Shown here: positions 3,497 to 53,269 of the stretch, piece after piece
Layout of the letters: the number at the start of each line of letters is the position of its first letter
Position numbering within the stretch: position 1 is the stretch's first letter
Source: Geosiphon pyriformis
Taxonomy: Eukaryota; Glomeromycota; Glomeromycetes; Archaeosporales; Geosiphonaceae
DNA length: 64,000 bases
Assembly: GCA_016748015.1 (NCBI GenBank)
Contig: JAAOMT010000276.1
Coordinates: forward strand, 250,249 to 314,248
Direction of reading: 5' to 3'
Made by a program: the position numbers and the translations under genes
The notes under the pieces: model-generated
What the model was told of the DNA's origin: nothing
Databases searched by the model: none
The model's input: the letters and a program-made list of their open reading frames with translations, nothing else

Positions 3497-6485
<2,989 letters not shown>

Positions 6486-18943: not shown

Positions 18944-20640
18944 GTGCAGCCCAACCACTACCTAAGTACATAGATCAAAATTAACCTAAATTAAGCATGG
19001 CTTATGCCTTGTCTACACGTGACCAGCCATTCGGGCCAATCAAGACAGCACTACACATCTAAACACCCCATTATAGGGATGCCACAGAGAAAACCAAAAT
19101 CCAAACTGGTTAAACATGAATGCAATCCAAAACACACATAAATACCTAGCTTGAAACCAAAATCCCAGATCATTCTAGCTGTCCACAAAAAAGCTAAACC
19201 AAACACTGAAGAAATAGGCAATCCATTACTTGGCAAGAAATTATGTTTCTTATAATAGAGTTTCAACTTAGCTGTAGACAGCCAGATGGCAGATCTGTGA
19301 TTCTCAGCAAAATGATGAATGAAATTGATAACCAATGTATTCCTATCAGAGCCAGCACCCAACCGGCTTACCATGTCAACTATTTAACTCTTCAGCATGA
19401 AACCTTTAGTCAGCAATGTGTATAAGTCCACAGAAGAAGCAGCCTTTTTTAGCAAACCAGCAATTGCATTCCCATCAGCAGAAGCATTTAGCAACACATT
19501 CCACTCCAAATTAGCATCAGATAACAAGATATTTCTAACATCTACATCATGATCACAAGAGAAAACATGATCAGAGTCCTCCACCAAATCACACTGAATG
19601 TAGACAATACTTGGATAACTCGGATTATACATCTTTTTCTTCTTGGCCACAGGCAAGCAATAGTAAAGTGCCTTCATAAAGTATGACTGAAGTGTTACCA
19701 ATGCAGTGCACATGTAATCAGATTTGATCCCATCATCAGGATGTCAAACACAAAATGTCCTGGCCTTATCAAAATGATCATTAAGACCCACACCAATAAC
19801 ACTATCAACACATCTGGCTTCCCAACCAACAGTGTAAACAGCATTGAATAATTTTTTGGCAAAATAACAAGTGTTCCCAAAGACAGATCTGCCTTCAACA
19901 ATGAGAAATCGATAAGGTATTGCAATAGGTAGGAAGGACTTAAAGATGACAGCTATATTAGCATAGAAATCAGCACACTCATTTTCAATCACACCAGAAT
20001 GGCCTTTAACTTTATTCCACATAACTGACAAATTTTTTCTTGCAATGACATGGTGAATATGTTCTTTTTCAATCCAGCATTTGTTATGGAAGTCGGGACC
20101 AGATATACTACTGGTAGATATACATATGTTCAGCAAAGCTTGGCTGTCTGTGTATAAATCAACCAAATGAGAAATGGGCACACACTCCAAAGCAAGTGCA
20201 ATGGCCTGCATCTCTGTCAAAGTTAATGACAGCAACCCATCCATCTTAATCTCAACACCAGTGTCCACATTTGGAAAATAGGTGGCAGCACTACCACAAG
20301 CACATAATAAACCCAAATTCTTTATAGAATCATCAGTGTAGACAGGTATAGAATCCAACCTGGAATTCAGTAGATGCTCACCAATATAACTAAAGTCACA
20401 AGGAAAGCCAGTGGAATCAGAATAAGGAGACAACAACTCACTATTTGACAAGCCACCACCAATGATAAATTTGACCAAAGAAGCAAACCAGGCAGGAACC
20501 AGGCCTCTAGGATCCAGCTTCTTCTACCTGCGAAAAGTGTTCCACGTAAAACACTTGCCATAGCAATCCAGAAGCTGGTTCACAAACACCATACTATATC
20601 TTTTAAGAGACTTTACTATGTCTAACTTTTATTTATCCAA
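18944..20640 (-). mobile_element. LINE fragment: RNase H domain and 3' end
   Basis: Minus-strand 5'-truncated non-LTR retrotransposon. The frame at 20478-19744 carries a type I RNase H: VYTDDS (first Asp), LTLTEMQAIALAL (Glu), VDLYTDSQALLNI (Asp) and KGHSGVIENECADFYAN (His/Asp). Upstream, LDPRGLVPAWFASLVKFI is the link from the lost reverse transcriptase. Downstream, in another frame, a Cys/His stretch (DSDHVFSCDHD) resembles the zinc-binding tail of LINE ORF2 proteins. The 3' end (18944-19060) matches, with many transitions, the 3' end at 22550-22670, and a T-run on the plus strand marks the poly-A side. Several frame breaks show it is dead. The reverse transcriptase itself is not present. 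Confidence 0.8.
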
Positions 20641-20768
20641 CAATAAAAACTTATTTATGAAAACCAAAATCTTTTTAATAAAATTATTATTGATCTTTAA
20701 TTTTGACCAGTTTAATAATTAATTTTAAAAATTTAGGTTTTAATAATTTAGGATAATCATTAATTAAG

Positions 20769-20804
<36 letters not shown>

Positions 20805-22544
20805 GAATTAGAATTCAAGAATATTACTTATTGTAATAAAAAGTTATTGTATATATAAGAATTTGTAATATAAAATATATTTTAACAAAATCAATATTTT
20901 ATAATAATTAATAAAACTAAAATACTAATTATATAATTAATGTAAAAAAATAATTTTTTTATTTATTTATTTAAAATTTTAAATGTTTTTATTTTAAATT
21001 AATCATTTATAACTATTAATATTTTAATAATAAAAAGTAATTTTATAATAATTAAATTCAAAAAAAATTGTAAAATATTTTTTAAAATTTATTAATACAT
21101 AAAATTAATATTTTGTTATAATATATTTTAAAAATATAACATAAAATTAATATATAATTTTTTTAAGTATAATTTTATTTAAAAAATTTTAATAATAATA
21201 AAATTTTTGAATATTTTTTTATTATTAAACAATAAATTAAATATTTTTGATATTTTTAATAATATAAATATTAATTGTGAACATATTAAATAATTAATAT
21301 TAATAATAAAAACAAAGTTTTTTTAAATTTAAAACAAATATTTATAAAATAAAAAAATAATATTAATAAATTAAAAGTACTGTTTTTAAATACAATTAAT
21401 TATAATATTATTACAAAAAAAATAAATATTAACTAAGTTTTAAACAAATATTTTGGTTTTAAAATATAGTTTTTCTATTTATATAATAATAATTAATTTA
21501 AATAACCAAGCTATTTTAAATATCTGTATAAAAAAAATAAATTTGATAATATTTAACTTTTATAATTATTGTTAAATTAAGTATTATAGTATTAAAAACA
21601 TTATTTACAAAAAAATTTTAAAAATTATCTGATCAAAAGTCAAAAATTATTCAAGTTTATATAAAAATAATTATAATAACAATTTAATAAATATAGTAAT
21701 CTTGTATTATCTTATATTATTAATTATAATTAATAAATATTTTGTTATAACAAATCATAAAATAATATTTAATACACAATATATAAAGTGTTTAAAATTA
21801 TTAACCAAGTTTATTAGAAGGCTAATTTTAATACTTAAATTATAAATTAATATTTATTTAAAAAAATAATTTAAATTTAATCTTTATTAATTTGGTATTC
21901 TAATTTATATATAACTATTGACTTTATAAACATATTTTTAATTAATTTATGTATTTATATTATAAAAACTATACACAAAAAACTTTTGGTAATTATTTAA
22001 AAAAACTATATTTTATGTTTTATTTTAGTATTTTATTTATATATTATAATAAAATTAAGTTTTTAGATTATATTTTTTCATGTATTATAAGCTTAAGTAT
22101 TTGTAAAAATTTGTTTAAATTACAAATTATTATATAGATATCTTTTTTAAATAATATTAATATATTATATATTATTTTATATAAAAACTTAATTTTTAAA
22201 AAATAGTTGTTAAAAATTAAATTTTTTTTTAATAATAATAAAATAACTGTTTTTAAAATAATTGAATTTATAAAAAGTATTGTTATTTGTTATTAATATT
22301 TAGTTAATAATAAATAATTACAAATAAATATTAAAAAAACATAATATATTAATAAATAATAGATTTGTTTTTCTGTAATAATAATATTTATTTTGTTAAA
22401 TAAAATTGTTTATTTACTTAACATTAGTAAAGCTTTGAAAGTTTTTTTTAATATATATATTTTATGTTTATTTTATGTTAATATAACTAGTATTATAAAT
22501 AGATTTTTTAGATAGATTAGTTGTTGTTATTGTTTTTTTTTATT
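20641..22544. other. Extremely AT-rich spacer
   Basis: About 1.9 kb of almost pure A/T with a (TTA)n tract near 20771-20803. No protein-like frame can be read. By its position between two LINE fragments it may be an older, fully decayed element, but nothing in it proves this. Confidence 0.5.
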
Positions 22545-24850
22545 AAAGTTTAATGAGCAAAGCCCAACTATTATCTAATACAATATGACCATATAGAGTC
22601 TTAAATTAGATGTGGTTCATGTGTTTTTTACATGTAACTAGCTACTCAAGCCAGTTCAGACTATACTACATTAATGCACTAAAAGAAAACTTACTCAAAG
22701 ATGACATCTTTTGAATAACAAGAAACAAAGTTGCACTGCAAAAAACCAATCCAACCAGCCATTTGGCTGTTTTCAAGACATCAACTTTAACATTAATAGT
22801 CTTATGTTCCCAAAAAAACATTAAGTTAGAAAACATTTCATTATCCAAACCAATTGGGTGCTCTGAATTACCAGACATATCAATATCCTCCATGCAACAC
22901 TCTTTTTTTAAAGAAACCACTTCTCTTTGCAACTTACCAACAACTTTATTAAAAGAACCCAAATGTATCATAACTTTATTAATCTTAAGGCCAAGTTTAC
23001 TGCTTGAAATCAAATTCCCATTAATAAATTGTTCGAACAATTTGACCAAGAAACCAACTAGTTTAACAATAGACTCAACCAAAACAGAAAACTTAATCAA
23101 ATCAGACTTTACAGAAACCAATCAAGAAGACACTATGGGATTACTAACAATCATAAAAAGAAAAGTAGGAGCCACCAAGGGAGGAAACTCAGAAGAATCC
23201 AAGGAAATAAAAGCTTTTGTGTAAGAAACACCATTCACAAAATATTATTTAAATACCTTGGAAGTCTTGGAAAGGGGAGGTGAAAAAACTTTGCAGTCTA
23301 CAGCCAAATGGTCTATTTTTTGATATCTAAAACAGCACCGACAACCAAAAGTTTCCCACCAAATACAGCATTTTCTTAAGGTACCAGTTTTGACAACTAT
23401 AGAGTTTAAATCAACTTGAGAACCAAATGTTACTAGAACAAACCAGGAATGATGACCAGAATTAGGCAAATAAGGAATGAAACAAGTCCGGTCATCAACC
23501 TGAAAGATTATACCATTAATTTCAAAGACAATACAGCCAGAAGGGAGATTAACCAACTTGGCCTTAAACTAATCACAAAACAAAATTGTCTTATTTTGAT
23601 TGATAAGAGAAAAAATACAAATACTATCTTTGTCCACCAAAATTGACCAGTGAGTAAAAGCAGAGACAGCAGCATCCAATTCTTTAAAATAAACAACCAC
23701 ATATTGCCAAATACTAGCAGACTTTAATATAACACAAAAAACTTCACCAAAAACCCTAAGAGCCAACTTAATATTGGCAGCAGATACATCCAAAGACATA
23801 TTACACAGTGCAACAACAACAAGAGAAAAACCAAACTCAGAAACCACCAAAAACTTGGCAATTTTAAGAGTGGTAAGGCAAACAGAGCTTGTAAGCTCAA
23901 CCAAAAATGCAGCATCTAGAGAACTTTGGGAGGCAAACTCAACACAGAAAAGTTTCATATTGTCCTTAGAAACAGATTTTGCACCCAAAAAACCATCTAT
24001 AGACTGAAAAGCAGCCTTAACATAAGCCAATTTGATCTTGAAAGTAGCACCAAGCACCAGAGTAGAGACTATTTATCCAGCAAATTTTTGACGACTAGTA
24101 ATAGTTTCTTAAGCATCACCAATAACAGCACCAGAAACTAGAGGAAAAAATAATTCAGTTTCTATCTGGTCAGTCCAGTTTTCAAAAACAGGTAATCCAA
24201 CAGAAAGAGATTGCTTTGCTTCTAAAACTGGCAATAATTTACCAAAAGACACCACATTTGGCAATACAGCCAGTAGTTAATTTTGGTCTATCTTGAACAA
24301 CATGCTAGATGATACTATGGAGATCTTATTTAAGATCTTGTTGGAAACCACAAAGAGTTTCAGTGTAACAATAGCAAAGACAAGTAACTGCTTCCATTTT
24401 TCTGAACTTTTGGTCTTTTTGACCATATTTTTTGAAGAAATGGTATTAGTAACACCAGATGTTGAAGCAAGAGAAAGGAAGACCAGCTTGTTTACAGATC
24501 TATTATTAAAAACTTTTGGGCTCTTAGTTAAGATGGAGACAACACTAAGATTAACACAAGTATATCTTTTTGAAGGAACTTTGACTGAAAAAAAACCAGC
24601 CAAAGATAAAAAAGTTGTTTCAATAGTCACCAAAGACAGCTTTTTACAATTATTGGGTAAAGGGAAGACTTCTAAAATGTTCTGCTTAGTTGCTTTTACC
24701 ACAAAGAAAGCTTCTCTGATTGAAATTTTATTAGATATCTTAGGAAAGATATTAGGTACAGCTTTCTTACTTTTTGCTTTGGTCATGGTCATAAAAATAA
24801 GGAAACAAAGAGCTTTTAATATTTTGTTTTATAACTTAGTATTCTAATAA
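22545..24850 (-). mobile_element. LINE copy with ORF1-like gene, ORF2 missing
   Basis: Minus strand, 5' end near 24850. Blocks from 24792 down to 22666 form one ORF1-type protein broken by stops and frame changes: a Lys/Ser-rich start (TKAKSKKAVPNIFPK), a middle block (FKIKLAYVKAAFQSIDGFLG, then LVVVALCNMSLDVSAANIK), a zinc-knuckle-like CCFRYQKIDHLAVDC at about 23300, and a C-terminal block (FLVKLFEQFINGNLISS). Directly after this comes a 3' end (22550-22670) homologous to that of the fragment at 18944, with a T-run beside it. No reverse transcriptase or RNase H lies between, so ORF2 is deleted or this is an ORF1-only derivative. Confidence 0.72.
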
Positions 24851-24899
24851 AGTTTTATTGTAATTTAAAAGTTTTTTAAAGATTTTAGTAATAAAATTT

Positions 24900-27830
24900 T
24901 TTATAAAATAAACAAAAATTTAATATAATTATAGGTAATTTTTAGTGTATTTTTTTTGGCTTAATAATTAATTTATTTTAATATTTATATTTTTTTAATA
25001 AGTAATCTTAGTTTTTATAATTATAATTATATTTTTTTTTGGAATTTTTTACTAAACAATTTTAATCTTGTAATTTTAATGCTTTTTTTTAATTAATTAA
25101 TAAAACAAAAGAAACAACAAAAAAACAAATAAATAAAATAGAAGTTAATATCTTATTAATTATAATTAAAAACTATTATTGTAATATTAATAAATTAATA
25201 TATTTAATATTAATAACATCAATATAAATATAATTAGATTAATATAGTTATTAAATTGATTATAGATTTATTAAATAATAATAAAAACTAGATTGATTTT
25301 AAAATAAGCTTGTCTGATTTTAAATTGTCTGTTTTTTTGGTTTTTAATACTTTTAATATATATATAAATTTTTATAATATGAAATTTCTGAAATTTTTAT
25401 AATTTCTTTGTATTATTACTAAAATTTTTGAAATTTCTACTGGTATTTTTAGAATTTTTAATATTATATATTCTAATAATTTTTTATTTTGTTATTAATT
25501 ATTTTATATTATTATTATTTTTTGTTTTTTACATAAATAATAATATATTTTTTTTAATATTAAGTTTTAATAAATTTTTAAGTTTTTTTTTTGAATAAAT
25601 TTGAGTATTTTTATTATTATTATTATACTTTTAGAAACTTTTATTTTTAGTTTTTTGAATTATAAGTTGGTTATTTTTTTTATTTGATTACTGTTAAGCT
25701 TTTTATGACTAAAAATAATAGTATTTTTTGTATTTATAAAAGATTATATATAATTAATAAATTGTTTTAAGTAAGTTAATAAGTTGTTTTTTCCAATAAA
25801 ATAATTTATTTGTTGTACTGTTTTTTTGTTAAATATTTTTTTAAAACTATTTATGTATAAAATTTGAATATTTAGTTATTTTCTTAAATAATAATAACAA
25901 TATATAATTAAAAACTGTTTTTTCCAATTTTTTTAGTTTTTTTTTGTTAATTTTCTTGATTAAACAAATATTATTGGGTTTTTAAACGTTTTTTTTTACT
26001 TTTTTAACAATATTTTTCACATAATTATTTATTTATTATTGTAATTTGTTGTATAAAATTTTTTTATTTGTTTTTTTTTCAAAAATCTAAATCTAATAAT
26101 AGAATTAATAATAAAAATATTTAAAAAAATAGCAAAAAAAATAGCAAAAAAAGTAAAAACCATAGCATAAATTTTATTATTAACAAAAAATAATACAAAA
26201 AGCCTATAGATAATAATAAACTTAGAAAACAGCTTAAAAAAAAAATAAAAACACTTTGTAATTAGTAAATAAACAATCCAAATTTTAATATTTATAATAA
26301 TAGTAGTATCTAAAAGTTTTTTATTAAATACAACATTTGTGTAAAGTATTAGTCTTAGTTACAATAAGCTTTAGTATTTTATAAGACTTAAAAATAATGA
26401 CAATAAAACATTAATAATAATAAAAATTAGAAAAATAAGAAATATAATAAGTATAATTATCAATATAAAAAATTATATTATTAATTTTAAAAACAGTACA
26501 ACCAAAAAAAAAATTGTCTAATTTGGTTTTAAATAAATCTTTAAAAGTAATAATCTCTTTTTAATAATAAAAAAATTTGAACACTATTTTTTTTATTAAT
26601 ACAAATTAGTTATTAAAAACAATAGTAGCAAAAAAAAAGTTCATAAAATTAACAATAGTATATTGTTATAAATCAACAGACTTTAATTTAATAAAGATAA
26701 TAATACCAAAAATATCAAATATATATTAAAAAAGACAATACAAAATACAAAAAATATGAAAAAAAAGAAACCAAAAGTCACTACAGAAGATTTTGCAATT
26801 TTAAATATAATTAAAAAAAAAATCATTAATAACAACATTGATAATAACAATTAAAAAAGTCTTAAAAGCAAAATTTATATAGAAAAACTTAATATTGTTT
26901 TTAAAAATTAATTTAAATTCAATAAAGCCAAACAACAGATAAAACAAAAAATTAACTAAAACTAATTTAATTTTAAAAATAAAATTAGACATCAAAGTAA
27001 AGACTACTTATTTAAAGAAATTTTAATGATTAAAAATTGTTTTTTAAGTACTATTAAAGATTATATCAAAAAACAAAGAAACAAAGATTAATTTAATTTC
27101 TATTTGATTAGTTTAATTCTTAAAATTAGATAACTTAATAAATTGTTTTACTTTTAGAATCAGTAATAATTTGCTAAAAAACATCATATTTAATAATACA
27201 ACCAGTAATTAATTTTGGCTTATCTTGAAAAATATGTCATTATTATTGTTATTTATATTAGAAAAAAGATTAATTGTTATTGGAAAGATTTTATTCAAAA
27301 TTTCATTTAAAGCCACAAAAGAATTTGGTATAATAATAATAAATATAAGCAACTGTTGCTGTTTTTTTGATTCTTTGGTCTTTTTGGCCATTTGCAAAGA
27401 AATAATAATAATATTAATAGTAAAAACAAAGAAAACTAGCTTGTTAACTAGTCTATTTTTGAAAACTTTAAGGCTCTTAGAAAGAATAAAAACAACACTA
27501 AGACTAATTTAAATGTGTTTTTTAAAAAAAAATTTTAACTAAAAAAGAACCACCAGCCAAAGATAAAAAAAATGCTTTAGAAGCTGTCAAAAGCAGCTTT
27601 TCATTATTAATATTTAAGAAAAACATAGCCAGAACATTCTGTTTAATTGGTTTAATAATAGAAAAATGCTCTTTTGTTGAAACTTTATTAGTTTTTATAG
27701 GAAAAATAACTTTTGAAACTATTTTATTTTTTGCTCTGATCGTAATCATAAAAATAGGAAAGAGAAAAAGTATTTTATTTTTTGCTTTTTATAGATTATT
27801 TTTTTGTAATTTATTATTATATACAAAATT
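24900..27830 (-). mobile_element. AT-decayed copy of the same LINE
   Basis: Frames at 27749-27522, 27397-27209 and 26995-26801 are recognisable versions of the ORF1 blocks at 24792-24277 and 24057-23569 but written in almost pure A/T codons. FKIKLVLVNFLFYLLFGFI matches FKIKLAYVKAAFQSIDGFL, and AKKTKESKKQQQLLIF matches VKKTKSSEKWKQLLVF. Nucleotide comparison shows mainly C-to-T and G-to-A differences. The remainder down to about 24900 is AT-rich with no readable frame and is assigned by position only; the left boundary is uncertain. Confidence 0.65.
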
Positions 27831-27862
27831 CAGATGTTTACTTTGGTTTTGTTGCAGCATGT
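27829..27862 (+). repeat. Decayed copy of the 46-bp terminal repeat
   Basis: AGATGTTTACTTTG followed by GTTTTGTTGCAGCATG matches the right-hand inverted repeat at 51963-52008 with C-to-T changes and a 4-bp deletion (TCTG). It has the same orientation as the right-hand repeat. No partner was found by eye, probably because the DNA to the left is heavily AT-converted. Confidence 0.6.
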
Positions 27863-28449
27863 TTTATTTTATTTTTATTATTTATTTGAAAAAAATGCAA
27901 TTTAAAAGTATTTTTTAAATTAATAATAATGATAATTAATTAATATTAAATCAATTATTTTTATAATCACTTTTAATCATTAAATAAATTATTTTTAATT
28001 TTTAATTATTATAATTTATTTGTAGTTTTCAACGTTATTTTGCATTAATGTTTTTTTTTGAATTGATTTTAAATTACTAATAAAAGAATGTATTATATCA
28101 TAGATAAAATTTTATTTATAGAAGATTATTTACATTAGATGAAAAATTATATTTTAAAAGTACAAGTATATCAGTTAAAAATATTATAAAGTGTATAAAT
28201 TTGATAAATGGGTGTTTTTTAATAGTGGTCCGAATTATGACGTATAAAATTTTTGATTCGATGAAAAATATTTAAAACTTCCGTTCCCCAACCATTGGGG
28301 GCTCCATAAACTTAACGTATCTAAAGAATTTCTGTTTACCGTGGAAGGTATCGAAACTGGATTTTTAATATTATTCTGATGATGTATTAGGCAAGAATTA
28401 TTTGATGACCTTGAATGAACTTACAATTATTCCTATGACATCCTGAAAG
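27863..28449. other. AT-rich spacer upstream of NDUFAF5
   Basis: AT-rich at the left and more balanced from about 28200. It would hold the promoter of the methyltransferase-fold gene that follows. No other feature was seen. Confidence 0.5.
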
Positions 28450-35215: not shown

Positions 35216-35427
35216 TTGTTGAGTTTTAGGGTTAAAAAAAAACTTTGACATGGAGAATCTTGCTTTTTACGTTTAGCTAAAAAAAGATTTTGCGAGGACC
35301 AGTAGATAAAAAATAATTGATAAAAGCACTAACCATTACTGGGCCTGCAGCAGTAGTAGAAGATCACTGATCGATTAGATCATTAAAGTCGAAAGACACG
35401 TCAAAATATTTTGAGCTTTAGACCTTA

Positions 35428-36216
35428 ATGGCACGGCGGTTTTCCGTACGACCAAAAATGATGGCATTTCTATATAGAAATACTTTTCATGATCCATTTC
35501 GCCTTTCATTAGTAAATAGGCAGAATATTTTGATTTTAACGACCCTGGCAAAGCCCTTGGTACTTTCCTTCACAATGTCTTCACAGCCACTTGATGAATC
35601 AAAGGGCGAAGAGTTATCCCTGACAATATCTCTACCGCCAAACATTCTATATATCAAAAACCACTTACTTGCGGCTTCCAAAAATCTTGTCTACATTTCC
35701 GAGAGTGACGAGCCATTTGAATTTGTTTTCTTCCCTAGTGCGGAACTTTCACAACTTCCAGAAACTGGGGAAGAATTCGCGTCCCTCGTCTTAGGCCGTG
35801 ACCTCAGCACCCTTCGTAAGCATCGTTCTTTAATGACAATTGAAGACGATGTTTATGATGATTCGCCACGACCTCGAGTTCTCGATTTTGACGAGTTTTT
35901 TACAGCCTTAAGTGGTGATAGGGTTGGTGAGGCTGCAAATGAGACACCTTTACAAGAGGACGACCCATACACTCAAACTCTAGGCTATGGTGAATTGAAA
36001 CGTGCATTTAAACGTTCTTTCACGGATGGTGGTAACAGTGTTACGCTTAACGAGGACGGGGTCATCGAACGTCCCCCGACTCCTGATTTGAATTCGAGTC
36101 AAGATTTTAGAATTTATCGTGTGCCATTGGATAAAACTAGAATTGAAATTTTTATTGTTGGATTGGTTAAGGGTGTTGGCGTCGTTGGGGTTAAAACCTT
36201 GAGTATTGAGACATAA
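35428..36216 (+). CDS. NuiA-like protein (nuclease A inhibitor fold)
   Basis: One exon, 262 aa, ATG start. From residue about 72 on, the protein follows the NuiA pattern: KNLVYISESDEPFEFVFFPS at the start of the domain and YRVPLDKTRIEIFIVGL, then VGVKTLSIET at the very end. In cyanobacteria NuiA blocks a sugar-nonspecific nuclease; eukaryotic members with this domain are mostly uncharacterised, so the partner here is unknown. The first 50 residues (Arg-rich, MARRFSVRPKMMAFLYRNTF) could be a mitochondrial presequence, or translation could begin at the inner Met of FTMSSQ at residue 50. An acidic insert (DEFFTALSGDR, then LQEDDPYTQTLGYGELKRAF) separates the two halves of the domain. Confidence 0.7.
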   Translation: MARRFSVRPKMMAFLYRNTFHDPFRLSLVNRQNILILTTLAKPLVLSFTMSSQPLDESKGEELSLTISLPPNILYIKNHLLAASKNLVYISESDEPFEFVFFPSAELSQLPETGEEFASLVLGRDLSTLRKHRSLMTIEDDVYDDSPRPRVLDFDEFFTALSGDRVGEAANETPLQEDDPYTQTLGYGELKRAFKRSFTDGGNSVTLNEDGVIERPPTPDLNSSQDFRIYRVPLDKTRIEIFIVGLVKGVGVVGVKTLSIET

Positions 36217-43279: not shown

Positions 43280-43414
43280 TATTACTAACGAAAGAATTTG
43301 AATACAGATACACAAATATAGAAAAATAAAAAGATTGTTTATAAGAGTTGGCTTCTAAATTTAGATTCGTTACCTATTTTTGTTGTCTGACCTATATATA
43401 GGTTTTTTGATATT

Positions 43415-43460
43415 TGGGGCGTGCTGCAACAAAACCAGACAAAGTGAACATTTGACGTCA
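43415..43460 (+). repeat. Left 46-bp inverted repeat
   Basis: Perfect inverted match to 51963-52008. It contains ACAAAACCAGACAAAGTGA, which recurs in part at 48406, and ends with the palindrome TGACGTCA. Confidence 0.95.
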
Positions 43461-44767
43461 TTTGGGCATCGGGCCCGAAAATTTTATTTTCGCTGTTGCT
43501 TTGTCCGTAGCTTTTTAATAATTCAATATTCACCATATAAAATAGTTACAGTAAGTAGGCCAAAAATATAACCCACAGTCCTTTGCTTTTATATTTCGCT
43601 ATTTTTTTTTTTTTTTTTTGTTAACTTAATCTGATGCTTTGTTTTATGTTCCTGAGCAGCTTTGACCGTGACAAAGTCATTGTTTTTTTAAATCACTGAC
43701 ATTAGTATTAACGCAATAACGATAAATATTAGGTCCAGTTACTTTCTATTGCATTTTAGCACAAATGCTTTCGCTATACGAACTTGCTTCTTAAGAGCCA
43801 GAGAACTAGAATAACGAATAAATTATCATTTACCTATATGTCAAAATCAGGATACTAGTCTCGCAGGATTTCTCGAAGATGCGGAAATCAACGCCCACGT
43901 ATTTAGCATTTGGAAGCTTACCAAATGTTCCATTAAATTTGGCGGTTTTCCTTGGAGGATATGAACTTTTTGCTTAAGAAATAATAATTAGTTCACTGAT
44001 TAAACTTTCCTTAAAGCTAATAATAACTCTTTGGTGGGAGATAGAAAAGGAGTAATATTATGCTACTATAAATGGTGGTGTTAACATAAGACATACTTTT
44101 TTCAGCGCCGTTTTCCTTCCTCACTTCTTTACAAAGGTTTTCATAGTGTTGCGCTTTTTCTCCAAGCTTTTATTTACGCCTGAACTAGTGTCTTCTAATT
44201 CTGCGTTTCCCAAGATTCCGTTAAAAACTCGGGGAAAAGAGTTTTCCTTTTCAGATAACTCGTAGTAAATCATTAGTCTCTGGGGTTGTAAATATTCTAA
44301 CAATTTACTGCATACCGATATAGTACTCTCATTTTCTTTTTCCTGTGAATTTAATTAATTACATGTATATTCGAACAAACGACAGAGTAAACAAGCGGTG
44401 GCTTAGCGTGGGTGACGTAACATGAAAATTTTTCACATCATACATCAGCCGCTATGTATCAACAACGCGTCTTCTCCAGACCTCATCTTGTCCCCATGCA
44501 CCTGCCGCACCAACCCGTGTTATAAACGCAAGTTGCCCATTATCAGTTTCTTTGGTCCATTCTATTCTCTTCACCATCGCAAAAGTTTTCTACATTCTAC
44601 ACGTAAGTTCGACATAGGCCGCGTTGATTACCTCTTTGCGCACGCGTGGTGAAATTTTGCTCATTTGCTGACAATTTACAGTTTGCCTGGTTGCCCGCGC
44701 CATTTTAAATATTAGGCATTTCTCAAGTTGAGTGCTCTTCTAGTTTATGCTTTTACTAGCATCCATG
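43461..44767. other. Left arm of the repeat-bounded unit, no clear gene
   Basis: A minus-strand frame around 44340-44121 (LEYLQPQRLMIYYELSEKEN) and a plus-strand 76-aa frame at 44422-44652 with ATG are open but match nothing I know. A 17-T run lies near 43603-43619. Neither frame is supported enough to call a gene. Confidence 0.4.
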
Positions 44768-45156
44768 GTATCCTACGCTCGTATGGTTAGCCCTGGACCG
44801 ATGTTTGGATTAGAGGTCGCAGGATAATCATTATAACTCGCTCTCTGTGGCTTATAATGCCTACTCCTGGATGCTCTCTTCCAGTATACCAAACAACTAA
44901 GTATCCTACGCTCGTATGGTTAGCCCTGGACCGATGTTTGGATTAGAGGTCGCAGGATAATCATTATAACTCGCTCTCTGTGGCTTATAATGCCTACTCC
45001 TGGATGCTCTCTTCCAGTATACCAAACAACTAAGTATCCTACGCTCGTATGGTTAGCCCTGGACCGATGTTTGGATTAGAGGTCGCAGGATAATCATTAT
45101 AACTCGCTCTCTGTGGCTTATAATGCCTACTCCTGGATGCTCTCTTCCAGTATACT
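44768..45156 (+). repeat. Three tandem copies of a 133-bp repeat
   Basis: Copies begin at 44768, 44901 and 45034, each with GTATCCTACGCTCGTATGG; the third stops about 10 bp short at 45156. By eye the copies are identical. Each contains a hairpin-forming pair TATCCTACG and CGCAGGATA about 40 bp apart, and the short palindrome ATAATCATTAT. The array ends about 95 bp before the start codon of the next gene, so it may be promoter-linked. Confidence 0.92.
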
Positions 45157-45250
45157 AGCTTGTTAACGGATGCTATTGCTTTGTTTTCATTGCGATAAAT
45201 ATCTACTAGCAGCAATACTCATAAGGCTTTTTTCCAGACTAAACAATAAT

Positions 45251-47712
45251 ATGGATTTCGACCATTATGTTGCCGATTACCAAATGATCTCTGATCCAAA
45301 AAATTGGAGCGCTCTGGATTGTCTACATTATCTCAAAGAACGCGTAGATTTTAGCTCTGATAGCAAAAATGACATCCTTAAGGCGTTTAGAAGAAGATTT
45401 AAGAATGTCAGTCAATCTACAGCAATACTAGCTGGACCCAAAAAGAAGGCATGCGACCGCCAAAGAAAGTTTCAAGAGAAGGGAAATCATCGACTTCTTT
45501 GAAAAGCAGGACCAAGCATTCGCGATTGTATGTAATTGCCCGTTTGCAGGATTGGTTTGTTACACTATATTTCAATAACAACTATTGTTTATAGCGAAAA
45601 AATGACAGGGATGTTTTCCAAGCCGTTGATAGCGCAAAAGCAGCGATCGCAAAGTCCGCAAAAACGCAAATTATGAGAGTGAGCACCACTTCGTTTTGTT
45701 TTTCAGTAGGATGAGTGTACTTTGGCTTTTCATATCGATATTGACATGATTTAAGACGTTAGACGGGCCTATAATAGAAGGCCACATCAGTGTTGCTGGG
45801 CATAAGCGTGTAAGTCAATTGTTCTTATTAATTCATTTGCTCCTATGAAATGGTGCTAAATATATTGTATTGGCATAGCAACGAGATCCTGCAGAAGATG
45901 ATACAGATGACGATACCGAGGATGATACGGAGGGCAAAAACAAGATACTGAAAAAAGTGAGTATTAAGCATGTTATTATTCTGGAAAAGTCCTTCCATTA
46001 TTACGCTCTAAGAAGATTCCGTTACAGAATACGCTCCCAAGGCTTCAGCGAAAAACCAACACTATTACATGAAGATACAGTCACCCATTCCGCTGAGCAT
46101 GACGATTGCAACGCTGAGGGCGAAACCCACAGAAATGTGGCAGAGGATGAAAACGTAACGGTAAGAGTTTAAGGTTCCGTAGCTTTAGTTGGGCCCATTT
46201 GGATTTTTCGACAAAAGGAGAAATTAACATTAAGGTACTTACTTTACACCCGATTTAAAGGAGGATATCGACGATCAAGCCCTCTTGGCGAGGAATCTTT
46301 TAGACGAAGCGCAAGAAATTCCATTAGAGTTAAAAAACCTTCTTGACGCCTTTCAAACATATTGTCAGGGATCAGAGAACTTGTTGACGAGCAACGGTAT
46401 AATAGACCTTAGGCCGTCGTCAGAATTTGTCCTCTCCTATACGGACGAATGTGATTACAACGAGTTGCTTGAACGTACCTTCAATCCCATTGATGAGATA
46501 TTCCCCGAAGCAGCTTTCACTTTTCTCCTTGAATTTTTTTCCAAGGTACGAATTATCATAAAAGAAATAGTAATAATGATTATCGTAAATCCGACTTATC
46601 ACTCTTCATTTTCTTAATAGAGTCTAACTTGTCAGCATTGGTATGACGAGATCGAGAGATTGCTGGATCCAGAACATGATCCATTTATTAAAAATATGAA
46701 GAGGTTCATGTTTGAGGTTCTTCCTATCTTGTAGGTAACTGCACTGCATTTCTCTTAAGAAGATATTCTAATGTGGTTTTTCTTTGCTTCAGTCTTGATG
46801 CGTTTGCTATGGGATCTGAAAACCCAATGAAGGAAAGGAATATGGGAGAAGAGGAGTACATGACAGCATTCATCCATCCCATGTTGAAGAAAGCGCTTGG
46901 AAGATTTGCGAACCTGCGATATAAGCCGTAAGTGAAAATCGTTTCCGATTGCATTTGTACCTAAACAACTTACTCTTTTGTACTCTGCTAGTGGTGATAA
47001 AGCGATAGAGGCGTCTGCATACCGAAAATCAATTACAGCGCAATCGGGAAATCCGGATAGAGCAGACGGTATCGCCTACACGTCAAACAAGAAGCCTTAC
47101 GAAATATGTGTGGTCGAAGGGAGCAAACCTTACGATACTGAGAACGGAAAAGAAACACAAGATTTCATCCAAAACACCCGTGCCGCAAAAGATATGATTA
47201 ATTTTCTAGTAACTCAAGAAGTCAAGCAGAAAAGGGCTCTGCCAACATTCTTTCGAACCTTCATGGTCCAAAGTTTCGAGACAAGTCTGCGCTTCTATTT
47301 TATGGATTACCTGAGTAAGTACTGTATACGTATATATATTATATATTGCATTGTTTACTGAGTTTACGGAAACTTTTTTTAGGTTTTTACAGAATATTTG
47401 AGATTGAAGCCTGTGAGCTCCCAGTAGATCTGGCGGAAATAAATTTGTTTCCTTTTCTTTTCCGTGCGGTCATTACATGGGCGGTAAGTCCAAGAACCTT
47501 AGGCCGACGCAGAATTAGTTTTTAGTAATTACTTTTAACTCCTATTCTAGATCCTGGCAGGAAATACTGATAAAGAGTTTCAAACATTTCGGAATTCCAA
47601 GCGAAGCTCAAGAGTCAGTAATGCACATAATTTGAGAGTGCTTGCTCGATTGCAGCATAACAAGGCACGTCCAGGCAACAAAAAAAGCTTAAAAATGAAA
47701 AATATAATTTAG
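45251..47712 (+). CDS. Multi-exon hypothetical protein, possible PD-(D/E)XK-like domain
   Basis: Exon blocks 45251-45527, 45595-45678, 45756-45809, 45879-45956, an unresolved block near 46009-46162, 46261-46545, 46621-46730, 46793-46927, 46992-47314, 47383-47483 and 47551-47712. Block 1 needs one frame change near 45420-45430; blocks from 46261 onward keep phase. Readable parts: VADYQMISDPKNWSALDCLH, an acidic Asp/Thr stretch, PLELKNLLDAFQTYCQGSEN, KKALGRFANLRYKPGDKAIE, NPDRADGIAYTSNKKPYEIC followed by VVEGSKP, and IFEIEACELPVDLAEINLF. The PD...ExxK spacing could be a restriction-endonuclease-like core, as in several expanded fungal effector or transposon-linked families. This is only a suggestion. 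There are no TGA interruptions in these exons, unlike the downstream genes. It may be a slightly damaged copy of a multi-copy family. Confidence 0.6.
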
Positions 47713-48405
47713 ATTCATAGTAGCTTATTCATTTAATATGTAGTGACCATAGCGGAAGCATAATCTGTTGTGATAATCGACTCTTTGCATATAGTAGCCC
47801 CCGGGATTAAGACTGAACGTGTATTTGTATTTATGAGACGCGCATTATGAAGGGTTGACTGTATTGGATATATATACATAAATGTTATTTCGTAATAATA
47901 ACTTGCGTCAGGGGAGTACAAACAGTTTGTAATATATGGATATCTCCAAACTACGTTGAAATTACCAAAGCTGGTAGACATAGTAAACACCATAAACTGT
48001 ACTATTGATTTATGATTCAAGCTTTGATACCGTAGTATAGTGTACGGTTGTTCTCTATAATCGCTATTTCATTTCTTGCGAGAACGAGAATTTTCTGGGC
48101 TTAGATTCAACAGACAGAATTCCGATGTGCGCAAACTCCGATATTTATTATTGTTACCATTTCATGAAAATGAAGGGTTTAGATACGTGTTTCGAGATCA
48201 GACTTAATAAAAGAAACGCAAGTAATTTGGATCAATTATAAAGGCATACAGGGTTATCCCTCCATGTAACGACCCTCTTATTCCTCTATTTTTCTTTTTT
48301 TCCTTGGTTCTTGAAATGATTCTGCCAACATCCGTTTAAGAGCTTTTATATACACGGCTACCCTATGTATAGTACATAATGAATGCACAATATTATTAAA
48401 ATTTT
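47713..48405. other. Spacer between the intron-bearing gene and the TGA-rich segment
   Basis: No open frame with recognisable content. It ends in a T-rich and then AT-rich stretch just before the partial terminal repeat at 48406. Confidence 0.45.
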
Positions 48406-48427
48406 ACAAAACCAGACAAACTGACAT
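48406..48427 (+). repeat. Partial internal copy of the terminal inverted repeat
   Basis: ACAAAACCAGACAAACTGACAT matches ACAAAACCAGACAAAGTGAACAT of the left repeat with one substitution and one missing base, including a 15-bp exact run. It has left-repeat orientation and lies 45 bp before the first ATG of the TGA-interrupted transposase. Confidence 0.65.
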
Positions 48428-48471: not shown

Positions 48472-50231
48472 ATGAACGAATATGAGAAAGCTCTCCGGTT
48501 TTTAGAACTAGGCTGTGGATGCGGTTGCTCGGCTAAGCTGCCCAAAGAAGAATTTGCTGAATTGCGAGAAGACTTTCAAGCGCTAACAAAATCCGAACAA
48601 GACATTTTCTTAATGGCCCAACTCAGGCCCATGGATGGGGGAGCGATCAGTACTAGCCGACGTCTCAAGAACAAGACTCGCATCAACAAGAGAACTATTT
48701 ACTGCTGAAGTCGTAATACCCCTATTTGTCAAAAAACCTACCTCAATATGCTTGGTATTGGTCGCAATTATTTTGAAAATATCAGAAATCATCTGCTAAA
48801 GAATGGTCTTCTACCACGGGTCCATGGTAATGTAAAAAGAATGCCACGGTGAAAAACCAGGATGGTCATCAATATTGACGTGGCTACCGCGGTCAAGAAT
48901 TTTTTGCTAAATTATGCTGAAGTTCATGGTTTGCCCAGCCCGGTAAGAAACGTCAACCGAGTTACCCAATCAATCATCTTTTTACCAGCGGAAATGAGCT
49001 ATAAGTCTGTTCACCGTGACTTTTTGGCTGGTCTAGAAGAAGATAGTAAATTGCGTGCCCTCAAATATGATGCATTTCGCAAATTATGGCATCAGCTTAC
49101 CCCGTACATTCAAATTATGAGTCCTCGAACTGATTTATGCGATACCTGTCAACAGTTGCGGAATGACATGCAGTTCAAAGCCCGTAAAGAGGAAGAGGCC
49201 CAAGACTTATTGAAGAAGTATAAAGAACATCTAGCCAAAGCCAAGTTAGAACGAAACTATTATAACAAAAATACCAAGTTGGCGGAAGAACACAGAAAGC
49301 TTGTCGACCAGAATTATTCTGTTGTTTCAGTGAAAGGCAAAATACCATACTGCAGCATGGACGCTATTGCTCACTACAGTTACGACTGAGCCCAAAATGT
49401 CCATGTACCCCATTCGGATCAACAGATTGGCAAGGTGTATTACCTTAGTGCTCGCAAGGTACACTTGTTTGGTGTCCAAGATGAAGCGGTGCGCGAGCAA
49501 ATTAATTATGTACTGGATGAGAACGAACTTCTTGGAAAAGGTCCGAATGGTACGCTAAGCCTGGTCTTTGATGGAATCAAACAATTGAATAAAGGCGAGA
49601 AGCACTTGAAGGTTACTTGCGACAATGCGGGAGGGCAAAACAAAAACAATACGACTATTTGGTTTTATCTGTACTTGGTAATTGTTGGCTATTACGAAAG
49701 TATTGAGTTAAATTTTATGGTTCCCGGTCATACCAAATTCAAATGTGATGGAAGCTTTGGTCTAATTAAAAGACTTTACCGTAAGACCACGGTAGATTGT
49801 GTAGATCATGTGGTAGAGGTAGTAAAAAGGTCCAGTATTGCCGGACTAAACAAAGCTCGGCGTTATAATGGTAAAGAGGGTTTCCAATATCTAGATATTT
49901 TAAGTAGTTTGGCGGTCTATTTCAAGAAGCTGCCGGGCATGCAGAAGTTTCAACATTTCCTCTTTACTAGTGCTAATCCCGGTGTAGTCAAAGCCCAAGA
50001 AACCGCTAATGTCCCTTCCAGGAATTCAAGCTACTGAAAACCAGTAAACTCGAGGCTTCAAAGATCATACAAAAAACCAAGGCCTTATCATTTCCAATGC
50101 TGACCCCTTCTCCAATGAAACATGAGCGGCAAGAATATCTTTATAATTATATTCGTCCTTTTGTCCGCGATGAATTCAAAGATATTACATGCCCAAGACC
50201 AACCTATACTGGTAATGAACAAAACATTTAA
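48472..50231 (+). pseudogene. DDE-type transposase-like gene with in-frame TGA codons
   Basis: One continuous frame from 48472 to about 50015 contains TGA at 48706, 48850 and 49387 and no TAA or TAG. Trp fits each (YC-x-SRN, MPR-x-KTR, YD-x-AQN, where relatives have an aromatic residue). TGG is also used for Trp at 49087 and 49660. The protein resembles widespread transposon-derived RNase H-fold proteins (DUF7869 type): LLPRVHGNVKRMPR, IMSPRTDLCDTCQQL, then the presumed acidic catalytic positions in YCSMDAIAHYSYD, TCDNAGGQNKNNTTIWF and PGHTKFKCDGSFGLIKRLYR. A frameshift near 50020 is needed to reach the last block (EFKLLKTSKLEASKII to TAA at 50229). In the standard code it is a pseudogene; in translation table 4 (TGA = Trp) only the frameshift is a lesion. 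Confidence 0.7.
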
Positions 50232-50347
50232 CCAGTTTTGCACGTCACTGTATCCTTGCTGCCATTAAGCTTAATAAGTTTAATCTCTCAACTTTTCAAA
50301 GCAAAAAAATACTAAAATAATTTATAACTTAATATAAATAAAATTTT

Positions 50348-51321
50348 ATGACAAACATAATCAATGAACTCCAAGAGAGAAACAAAAGTCTAGCAGAAGA
50401 AAATAATCAATTAAAAGAAAAATTTGGTGTTAATCAAGATAATAATCTAACTCTAACAGAAATTAGACAACAGTTAGTTGAAGCATTGAGAGATATGCGT
50501 TATACTAACAATGCTGATGAAGAATTACTGGATGACATTATGACCTATTATCCTGGGCAAAACTGACCAAAATTTTGTGAAAATTTCCCAGTTAAGTTAG
50601 GTCGACAAATTCATATTGAATGCTTATACAAATTCATTATGTATTGAAAAAATTCCTTTAAACGCCACCAAGAAATTAAGGAGTTAAAGCATGAAAAGAA
50701 CCAGTTGACCTTAAAAAGTGAGGTGCTTGAAAGGGAACTTGAACATTCTGAGAAGCAAGCTAAACACTTTAAAAAAATCATCACAGAAATCTTACAAGAA
50801 CATTATGAATATTTCATCTCAACAGATGAAAATGATAAGCTTTCTTTTACCATAGACACTGAAAAAAATGAAAATTGACTTCAAGAATTAATAGACAAAA
50901 TTAGCAACAAAGAGCATGAAGGCCTTATTGCTGAAATTATTGAAAGTTGATTAAAGAGGCTCTTGAAACTAGTAAAAAATGAAATGATGCTCAAAAAGCA
51001 GAGTTAAGAGAAGAAATTAGAGATAAGTCTGAAGTCATTCGAGAGAATCGTGTGATAATCGAAAACCAAGAAAAAGAAATCCAAAAATTATGGGAGGAAG
51101 CACGGGATAATTCAGAATTGGTGAGAGAAGCTCGGAAGATAATTCAAAGGCAAGAAATGTTACTTAATTTATCTAATAAACCTTTACCTTTCTTACCTAA
51201 GAAGTCAAACAAATTTAAACGAATAGGAGTGGCAATAAAAAGAAAGTTTTCCCAATTAGCAGAAAATGTTAAGTTTCAAAGACGAGAAATGGTTGCTCAG
51301 ATAGAAGTTAAAGTCAAGTAG
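50348..51321 (+). pseudogene. Coiled-coil protein gene with in-frame TGA codons
   Basis: From ATG 50348 the frame has TGA at 50564, 50645 and 50876 and no TAA or TAG until a one-base frame change near 50946; the second part (TGA at 50980) runs to TAG at 51319. Reading TGA as Trp gives a long helical protein: NELQERNKSLAEENNQLKEK, a small globular-looking part (W-PKFCENFPVKLGRQIHIEC), KELKHEKNQLTLKSEVLERE, then EALETSKK-W-NDAQKAELRE and a basic end (PKKSNKFKRIGVAIKRKFSQ). Composition (Lys, Glu, Asn, AT-rich codons) and TGA use fit a mollicute gene. I do not recognise a family. The frameshift suggests it is no longer functional here. Confidence 0.62.
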
Positions 51322-51323
51322 CG

Positions 51324-51937
51324 ATGAGAGAATTGCTTTATACAATCTTGGAGTTAGAGGAGTGAGGCAAAGACACAACGTGTGATTTTTGCCCTAACTT
51401 TAACAAAAGAAACAAGGCAGTTTGTCAAATCAGAACTCGTAATAAAGTGAGCCATAGGATAGTTAGTAACGCTTGTGCCTGTGAGGAGGGTAAGGAAAAA
51501 TTTGAAAGTGGTGAATTGCCTAAATGCGAAAGATGCGGAGAGCTAAAAACTAGGATGGGTTTTCACTATAATTGTTCTGAGAGCAACGAAAAAGAACTTC
51601 CTTCTTTACCCAACGAGGAAAGATCTTCCACAAGATACGAACGCCAAATAAACTCCTTACAAGAACAATTAAATGAAGCCGAATGAACCATGAGAATTTT
51701 ATGGAGAAGTCCGAGGAATGAAGTAAAAGGCAAAAACAGGAGTTATTGGATCGAATAAAAGAGCTAGAAACGGAAGTAGAAAGATTAAAAAAGCAAACTC
51801 CCCAAGAAGTGGTTAATGAAGTAGAATCTTATAAAGAAGAAGTGGCTCGATTAAAAACTCTGTTAGAAAAATTGAATTCTCAACAGAAGACTCAAATTGA
51901 GGTTAAAAGGTGACCTTGATTGAAAATAAAGAAGTAA
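51324..51937 (+). pseudogene. Cys-rich plus coiled-coil protein gene with in-frame TGA codons
   Basis: ATG 51324 lies 2 bp after the stop of the preceding gene, as in a bacterial operon. The frame has TGA at 51363 (LELEE-W-GKDTTCDFCPNF). It then carries possible zinc-binding Cys: CDFC, VC, CAC and CERC, followed by NC. Near 51683 the reading must change frame to continue the coiled coil (NFMEKSEE-W-SKRQKQELLD, RIKELETEVERLKKQTP) with TGA at 51719, 51911 and 51917 (VKR-W-P-W-LKIKK) and TAA at 51935. It could instead be two overlapping genes (ATGA overlap at 51683-51686). Function is unknown; the code usage is the informative feature. Confidence 0.58.
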
Positions 51938-51962: not shown

Positions 51963-52008
51963 TGACGTCAAATGTTCACTTTGTCTGGTTTTGTTGCAGC
52001 ACGCCCCA
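51963..52008 (-). repeat. Right 46-bp inverted repeat
   Basis: TGACGTCAAATGTTCACTTT to CAGCACGCCCCA, perfect inverted match of 43415-43460. It begins 25 bp after the last stop codon of the TGA-interrupted genes. Confidence 0.95.
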
Positions 52009-52296
52009 TTTAATAGATTAAAAAATCTGCGAATTAAATTTGAACATTAATTTTAATGATGATGATGATGATGATGAGATGTTAACCTATCATTCACAAA
52101 AATTCACGAAAAAAATATTTGACAAAGCTTCCTTCCTTTCAGGTTACTAAAATACTCAGTTTAAAATAAAATACTTGTTCCCTAAACCAAATTTTTTACC
52201 TGTCCTGTAAAAAAGTCAAAAATTCAACTATTTCCTCACATTAATTTTGTTTATGCCCTCGGTGAATTCACAACTAATTTTAGGGCTTTTTGGCAA

Positions 52297-53269
52297 ATGG
52301 TCGAATCCTTCAAATTTCCGCGCAAGAGTGCCGAGCAAGGGGAAAAAAGTTTTTTCATCACTTTTGTAAGTTTAAAATGATGAAACTATTCATGGCATGC
52401 TTTAAATACACAAATTGGACTAATTTATTTTTCACAAAAACTCAGAATTTTCATAAACCATTTCCCTCCAAGACAGTGCTTGACGGGTCAACCCGTTCAT
52501 TCGCTTCGTTGGACTTCTCTGACGAACAAATTACACGAATATTCTTACTACAACATTTTACTGCGGCGTTTACCAGTTCTTTTTCACCTGACATTGACAT
52601 ATGGCAAGAGGAATTGTTCCAGGCCTTTAGTGAAATTATAACAAAAATAACCAGTTTTGTCGCAGTGGAAGAACAAGAATACTTTAGTCATGATGGTACC
52701 TTTCTAGATTTTATCTTGGATATAATTGAAAACGAGAAGATATTTCCGGCAAAACAAAAAGCAATTGAAACTATCCGAGAAGCCTTTTCCTCGCTTAATA
52801 CATCAAAACTACATTTTACCACTGAGCTCTTGGAGACTATATCTCCGGATGTATTTCATTACTGTTGTTTATGTGGCCGGTTTGTCGAAGTAAATTCTGA
52901 TCAATTATGGTACAATATTTCAACTCTATTTTGTCACTTGGAGACAGCTTGGGGTGAGTGTCAGGATTATCTCGAAGAGATATGGGAAGAAATGGAAGAA
53001 GCCAAATCCAAAAACACATGCAAATATTGGTCCCGTAGATCAATTTTGATTTGGACTTTGAAAACTGCCTGCAATCAATACTGAACAATCAAATAGGCAA
53101 GAGTGATCATAAAGTTTCCAGCGGATTCACATGTGGTTTTTTTTTTTGGGAAGAAGATCCCTTTTGGGACCTTGATAGACATTTTTCATATGAAGTGGAG
53201 AAACGTTATGAACAAATTAATTCTCATGGGGTGAAAGGAATATTTAATAAGTTTCGTCAAAGTTCTTGA
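52297..53269 (+). CDS. Hypothetical protein, two or more exons, frame break near 53010
   Basis: ATG at 52297 opens a 23-codon exon ending at a consensus GTAAGT donor (52366). An acceptor at 52472 continues in phase with TVLDGSTRSFASLDFSDEQI. The long exon encodes a mostly helical protein with no membrane segment, including SPDVFHYCCLCGRFVEV and DYLEEIWEEMEEAKS. Near 53010 the frame must change to continue into MDFENCLQSILNNQIG and the Trp-rich end WEEDPFWDLDRHFSYEVEKR, which stops at 53267. This may be a missed intron or a real frameshift. The family is not recognised. The gene starts less than 300 bp from the right inverted repeat. Confidence 0.5.

Follow-up and report, generated by a model that had tools for sequence, protein, structure and literature searches.

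The window analysed here is a stretch of 64,000 nucleotides from the fungus Geosiphon pyriformis (positions 250,249–314,248 of contig JAAOMT010000276.1, from an assembly of 124.7 Mb in 406 contigs). Between positions 43416 and 52007 it holds an element of 8,592 bp, bounded by perfect 45-bp terminal inverted repeats (TIRs) and flanked by an ATTT target duplication (Table 1). Its left half carries cargo in the standard code, and its right half, 48472–51937, carries three consecutive reading units interrupted by TGA. The initial annotation had described this right half as a 3.5-kb segment; the TGA pattern holds, while the limits do not, since the true unit is the larger element. An isolated 3.5-kb insert is in fact ruled out by the TIRs and target duplication that enclose it.

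Reading units, ends and genomic family

All 11 of the TGAs named in the initial annotation are genuine and in frame: 48706, 48850 and 49387 in the DUF7869 gene, 50564, 50645, 50876 and 50980 in open reading frame (ORF) 2, and 51363, 51719, 51911 and 51917 in ORF3. Two further in-frame TGAs had gone unlisted, one at 51684 and one at 50941 or 50948, depending on where the ORF2 frame shift is placed. As had been claimed, no in-frame TAA or TAG precedes the ends of the units, and the frames that we followed end with TAA at 50229, TAG at 51319 and TAA at 51935; the suspected frameshifts correspond to three frame breaks, one in each gene. ORF3 starts 2 bp past the ORF2 stop. Counted in all frames, the segment contains 96 TAA, 38 TAG and 82 TGA. 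That all 12 unambiguous in-frame stops should be TGA has p ~ 9e-6, a figure that flatters the case because the frames were chosen with translation table 4, and the real test is the family of copies.

Read with table 4, the first unit (516 residues) matches the Pfam family DUF7869 (PF25273; E 1.5e-16, with a score of 61 bits where the cut-off is 26), and this protein is probably the transposase of the element. The genome contains 95 DUF7869 matches. A single copy is often split into several of these, and together they amount to dozens of relatives on many contigs of 0.1–2.7 Mb; 34 of 35 genome matches exceed the Pfam gathering score. Searches of NCBIfam and PHROGs gave only HIT and weak coiled-coil matches, viral contigs, plasmids and phages yielded no relatives, and the structure database held no solved relative of DUF7869.

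The core of the TIR, searched with up to 2 mismatches, has 99 matches in the genome (49 on one strand and 50 on the other), among them the two ends of the window element, against 0 in a reversed control. Eight elements have both ends within the fetched loci, which we denote by L numbers (the window element, L010, L016, L018, L019, L020, L024 and L026), and seven of these carry identical 4-bp target duplications: ATTT twice, ATAT three times, AAAT and AATT. In the exception, L019, the duplications differ by one base. L022, whose right end is degenerate, was excluded from this count. The element is a TIR-bounded, target-duplicated, repeated DNA transposon. Since the target duplications lie in large contigs, a transposase must have acted on this DNA.

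Table 1. Coordinates and strands of the parts of the transposon, as positions of the window
Feature	Position	Strand	Basis or remark
Left target-site duplication, ATTT	43412..43415		Identical ATTT at 52008–52011
Left TIR, 45 bp, identical to right TIR	43416..43460	+	Sequence
Left half, standard-code cargo	43461..48240		Short open exon-like pieces, no Pfam match
Internal TIR-like sequence	48404..48424	+	Just 5' of the DUF7869 gene; also in L009, L010, L011
DUF7869 gene, probable transposase	48472..50231	+	PF25273 match; 31-copy codon comparison; one frame break near 50010–50019; stop TAA 50229
ORF2, coiled-coil-like protein, code 4	50348..51321	+	Homolog in L010; frame break near 50938–50961
ORF3, Cys-rich and coiled-coil-like protein, code 4	51324..51937	+	Homolog in L010; break between 51626 and 51698
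Right TIR	51963..52007	-	Sequence
Right target-site duplication, ATTT	52008..52011		Sequence

Codon interchange and selection among copies

Codon counts cover 31 fetched copies of the DUF7869 gene. At five tryptophan (Trp) sites, these copies hold 78 TGA, 50 TGG, 5 TAA, 1 GGC and no CGA. Their stops outside these sites, mostly in decayed copies, are 28 TAA, 10 TAG and 13 TGA, as expected from the earlier argument that random decay should yield TAA and TAG as well. Ordinary decay therefore looks different from the pattern at the Trp sites, because off-site stops are mostly TAA or TAG and on-site stops mostly TGA. At the Trp sites, the 17 copies without TAA or TAG, which include two fragments of 106 and 150 codons (L047 and L048), have 48 TGA and 25 TGG; elsewhere they have 3 further TGA. 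Every copy in which four or more sites were read has TGA, none being all-TGG, and the mostly open copies contain 2–4 UGA codons at Trp sites.

Third-position A/G exchange in conserved codons is 0.304 for Trp (5 columns), compared with 0.279 for Lys (31), 0.262 for Glu (21), 0.231 for Gln (16), 0.353 for AGR (2) and 0.133 for TTR (3). TGA and TGG are thus exchanged about as freely as AAA and AAG, and TGA is not visibly disfavoured. On a tree of 26 copies from which the Trp columns were omitted, the five sites require minima of 2, 3, 6, 4 and 2 changes, that is, at least 17 switches between TGA and TGG, a count that is only approximate because some copies have recombined. In the DUF7869 genes of L012 versus L013 and L016, the synonymous rate (dS) is ~0.07 in the 3' part and 0.21–0.50 upstream (middle ~0.5), a contrast that is due to recombination or gene conversion between copies.

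Under table 4, the window copy and its nearest relative, L009, differ with a nonsynonymous rate (dN) of 0.031, a dS of 0.542 and a dN/dS of 0.06. Over 171 pairs from 19 copies, picked as mostly open, the median dN/dS is 0.113, with 0.06–0.30 for nearest copies; 3' of each TGA the ratio is also low (0.03–0.23 in the four pairs tested). Purifying selection under code 4, upheld after each TGA, means that the gene was translated with UGA as Trp while these copies diverged. Codon interchange, switches on the tree and selection together demonstrate what the initial annotation had proposed from residue contexts, namely that TGA encodes Trp here.

The decayed copies L015 and L019 have a dN/dS of 0.45 and 0.66 against their nearest open relative, L026, and of 0.22–0.35 against L020 and L012. 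Relative to L026, L019 shows C-to-T changes at 94 of 152 CpG and 229 of 734 other C, with T-to-C at ~1%, and L015 at 53 of 98 CpG and 100 of 421 other C. As judged from these counts, this one-sided decay appears similar to repeat-induced point mutation (RIP); one report, in its accessible part, found no signatures of RIP in Gigaspora margarita (PMC8647823).

The same code extends to other genes of the element. The L010 homologs of ORF2 and ORF3 (the latter of 215 aa) contain 3 and 4 TGA, respectively, and no TGG. Over aligned copies, ORF2 sites read 5 TGA and 1 TAT, and ORF3 sites 9 TGA, 1 TGG, 1 CAA and 1 CGA. L054 has a 436-codon frame with a HIT domain, 15 TGA and 0 TGG; the 15 corresponding sites show, in the related genes of L017 and L025, 11 TGA, 3 TGG and 15 codons for other residues. 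A structure database search with this gene returned HIT proteins only. HIT domains have 23 matches at 17 places genome-wide, and by hand count 9 of the 17 lie within 3 kb of a DUF7869 or TIR match. The G+C content at third codon positions (GC3) is 0.21–0.24 for HIT, ORF2 and ORF3 and 0.30–0.43 for DUF7869 in four copies. We also note a small Trp-free protein at 3770–4099 of L010 (oriented), with MEPKNY near its start and a basic C-terminus; proteins of the same type occur near element ends, in both orientations, in L009, L011, L020, L026 and others.

Cargo, short elements and setting

The window cargo consists of four standard-code pieces (45167–45499, 45879–46169, 46234–46614 and 46936–47358), none with a Pfam match, Crinkler included; a candidate GT-AG intron lies at 46735–46792 and a putative GTAAGT donor at 46928. 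Cargo differs between elements. L016 encodes, inside its TIRs, a Crinkler N-terminal domain (PF20147, E 2.4e-18) with a kinase, L026 a kinase domain, and L020 genes without family assignment; no Crinkler match was found in the cargo pieces of L020, L026 or L010. Genome-wide, the Crinkler domain has 4 matches, 2 of them within ~3 kb of a DUF7869 match (C376, C96).

Decayed copies included, Trp cells of the L020/L022 cargo hold TGG in 16 of 18 cases (1 TGA, 1 TAG), and those of the L026-type cargo in 11 of 15 (1 each of TGA, TAG, TAA and TTA). Under the standard code, cargo dN/dS is 0.21 for L012–L026, with dS near saturation, and 0.43–0.46 for L020–L022. Comparisons of L026 with L053, L015 and L019 mostly give 0.58–0.75, one 67-codon piece of L053 giving 2.28. 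The L012 and L026 cargoes are homologous, with 40% identity, and occupy the same place in divergent copies.

Shorter elements share the same ends: four of one kind (L049–L052, ~0.36–0.52 kb), L053 (1.85 kb, with parts of L026-type cargo) and L054 (5.2 kb, without a DUF7869 match). By eye, matching ATAT flanks are present in L049, L052, L053 and L054 and not in L051, and the right side of L050 is degraded. L018 is a 4.1-kb element whose left part has no long frame.

Elsewhere in the window, frames match eukaryotic families above cut-off (Helicase_C, EXS, arrestin, HMG box, RhoGAP and BTB) and, weakly, DnaJ and PH; the frame adjoining the right end (52284–53081) has no family match. A frame in fungal context at 35422–36213 carries a NuiA-like (nuclease A inhibitor) domain (E 1.9e-12), and the G+C content of 20000–28000 is very low, at 16–27% in 2-kb steps. 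An Rfam search of the window gave nothing useful.

Origin of the element and comparison with known systems

A gene with UGA as Trp should not be translatable by the fungus. This suggests that bacteria within the fungus house the element for part of its life. We lean towards an element that evolved in a genome with UGA as Trp, most likely that of Mollicutes-related endobacteria, a donor that we infer, and that inserts into the fungal nucleus. Among compartments that share the cell, have contact with the cytoplasm and decode UGA as Trp, such an endobacterium would be the simplest choice: these bacteria sit in the cytoplasm of arbuscular mycorrhizal fungi without a host membrane (PMC8705746), and fungal genes have been transferred to them (PMC10507103), as far as the available parts of these two sources go. 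Of the two origins offered by the initial annotation, an element resident in both genomes fits best, and simple transfer of endobacterial DNA is too simple for a TIR-bounded, target-duplicated, repeated transposon with a standard-code left half.

In such a cycle, the DUF7869, coiled-coil-like, Cys-rich and, in relatives, HIT genes would evolve under selection in the UGA=Trp genome. The bacteria would make the transposase, which would enter the nucleus, alone or attached to element DNA, and insert the element at A/T sites. There, UGA codons would halt translation of the transposase, so that nuclear copies could not drive themselves; they would decay, some by heavy C-to-T mutation, would acquire Crinkler/kinase-type genes, and would be mobile only while the UGA=Trp compartment supplies transposase. 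The large number of lineages would then reflect many arrivals, or repeated two-way traffic. A bolder form of this idea, which we regard as possible and put forward tentatively, is a dual-code shuttle transposon, whose left half (Crinkler/kinase-type) would be kept functional by expression in the fungal nucleus and whose right half (transposase, HIT, coiled-coil) by expression in the endobacterium, the whole depending for its survival on passage between two domains of life.

Several observations weigh against an endobacterial origin. DUF7869, which we take to be a eukaryotic family, had no match in 14 of 14 prokaryotic controls, and scans of the GTDB collection, made with few exact peptides only and in which endobacterial genomes are not searchable by name, found no relative. 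The GC3 of the window DUF7869 gene (0.42) exceeds that of the fungal frames compared (0.27–0.36), unlike that of an AT-rich mollicute. By eye, no clear Shine-Dalgarno sequence lies upstream of the three window genes, two of L010 or two of L054; L012 and L020 have AGGA 10 nt 5' of the DUF7869 start. At one ORF3 site the two remaining copies read CGA and CAA, so TGA there need not be Trp. A catalytic fold (DDE/RNase H-like) was not confirmed, the single-sequence model having a predicted local distance difference test score of 34.5 and not being used. Finally, the L012/L026 cargo is not easily explained by one-way arrival followed by capture.

This last point bears directly on a scheme of dead ends, in which endobacteria deliver the code-4 element again and again, and it gains its standard-code genes only afterwards, as a nuclear resident. 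The left part of L018, which lacks a long frame, the variation of cargo between elements and the raised dN/dS of the decayed L015 and L019 against L026 all agree with it. Every full element examined other than L018, however, bears left-part cargo; L053 shows that a deleted element has moved while carrying part of such cargo; and the homology of the L012 and L026 cargoes, with their low dN/dS in the standard code (dS near saturation), favours an old association. One-way versus two-way traffic turns on the age of that association, and we consider strictly one-way arrival unlikely. A purely nuclear transposon, with the fungal cytosol reading UGA as Trp through a suppressor tRNA or readthrough, would need no second compartment to account for nuclear insertion, standard-code cargo and short elements, and the lack of all-TGG copies agrees with it. 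It appears quite unlikely, since each of the 2–4 UGA codons per open copy would need efficient decoding, TGA not being visibly disfavoured, and the HIT gene, with 15 TGA and a GC3 of 0.24, looks foreign to the nucleus. A scan for tRNA genes, in the window and in 20 loci, found none within an element (one tRNA-Gly lies outside the element). A UCA-anticodon tRNA pattern had 13 genomic matches, which could not be folded, against 6 in a reversed control. By eye, none of the 13 resembles the single CCA-pattern match, which is a weak argument, the CCA pattern having given 29 reversed-control matches.

Other sources of the code have smaller chances. Fungal mitochondria commonly read UGA as Trp and share the cell with the nucleus; HIT proteins and TIR transposons are, to our knowledge, not usual mitochondrial genes, and we give this compartment a small chance. 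No cox1 match was found in the assembly, so the mitochondrial code and context have no reference there. The moderate GC3, the lack of a clear Shine-Dalgarno sequence and the presumably eukaryotic look of DUF7869 would suit another eukaryote with nuclear UGA=Trp, for example a soil ciliate, but each of the many separately diverged lineages would call for a transfer of its own from an organism that lives outside the fungus, leaving this donor a slim chance. Decay by CpG deamination (CGA to TGA) or C-to-T hypermutation of TGG might be suspected from the heavy C-to-T change in some copies (L019) and from the CGA at one ORF3 site; the zero CGA at the five DUF7869 sites of 31 copies, and the 17 copies without the TAA or TAG that hypermutated TGG, CAA and CAG would create, leave it virtually none. 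For the clean DUF7869 copies, it is refuted as the source of TGA. An assembly chimera with endobacterial contigs is also very unlikely, to the point of being negligible. Endobacterial contamination has been reported in Mucoromycota and Glomeromycotina assemblies, as far as the accessible text indicates (PMC11423566, PMC10507103); here, however, the element ends carry target duplications and relatives lie on contigs of 0.1–2.7 Mb. The assembly contains no match to SecA or PolC-type polymerase, and matches to RNA polymerase subunit 2 occur on three contigs only and are taken as the nuclear polymerases, so no bacterial chromosome is seen in it.

In sum, if residence in both genomes is correct, the difference in genetic code between nucleus and endosymbiont would lock the expression of a mobile element, and the copies would document directly that traffic has passed from endosymbiont to nucleus again and again. 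Whether genes flow between such bacteria and mycorrhizal fungi would then be testable through the presence of these ends and genes in endobacterial genomes.

We found no mention of DUF7869 in the literature searched, which lacked most subscription papers. Within that literature, titles and opening lines of abstracts gave no description of a code-split element or of an endobacterial transposon in a fungal nucleus. The proteins of Pfam DUF7869 share the domain and differ from those described here, which have UGA at Trp sites. Gene exchange between Mollicutes-related endobacteria and fungi was reportedly described by Naito (2015) and Torres-Cortes (2015). In the available parts of two sources, such exchange concerns single genes passing from fungus to bacterium (PMC10507103, PMC5982333). 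The presumed partners and their cytoplasmic contact would be the same here, in contrast to those cases with a repeated mobile element in the nucleus. Crinkler effectors are said to have been linked with transposons by Zhang (2016). A link of Crinkler (CRN) effectors with transposons is also stated in the accessible text of one paper (PMC5289972); L016 shares a Crinkler and a kinase within its TIRs and differs from the systems outlined there in its neighbouring code-4 DUF7869 gene. Sequences of mitoviruses or organelles with UGA as Trp have likewise been described in nuclei (PMC4393810, PMC7082362), and these, as presented in the parts available, are viral fragments or copies, whereas the element here is bounded by TIRs and holds host genes. 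With TIR DNA transposons and miniature inverted-repeat transposable elements it shares the inverted ends, the 4-bp A/T duplications, the repeats and the short same-end elements. In contrast to these, its main gene is written in a code other than that of the genome that holds it, and its cargo in the code of the host.

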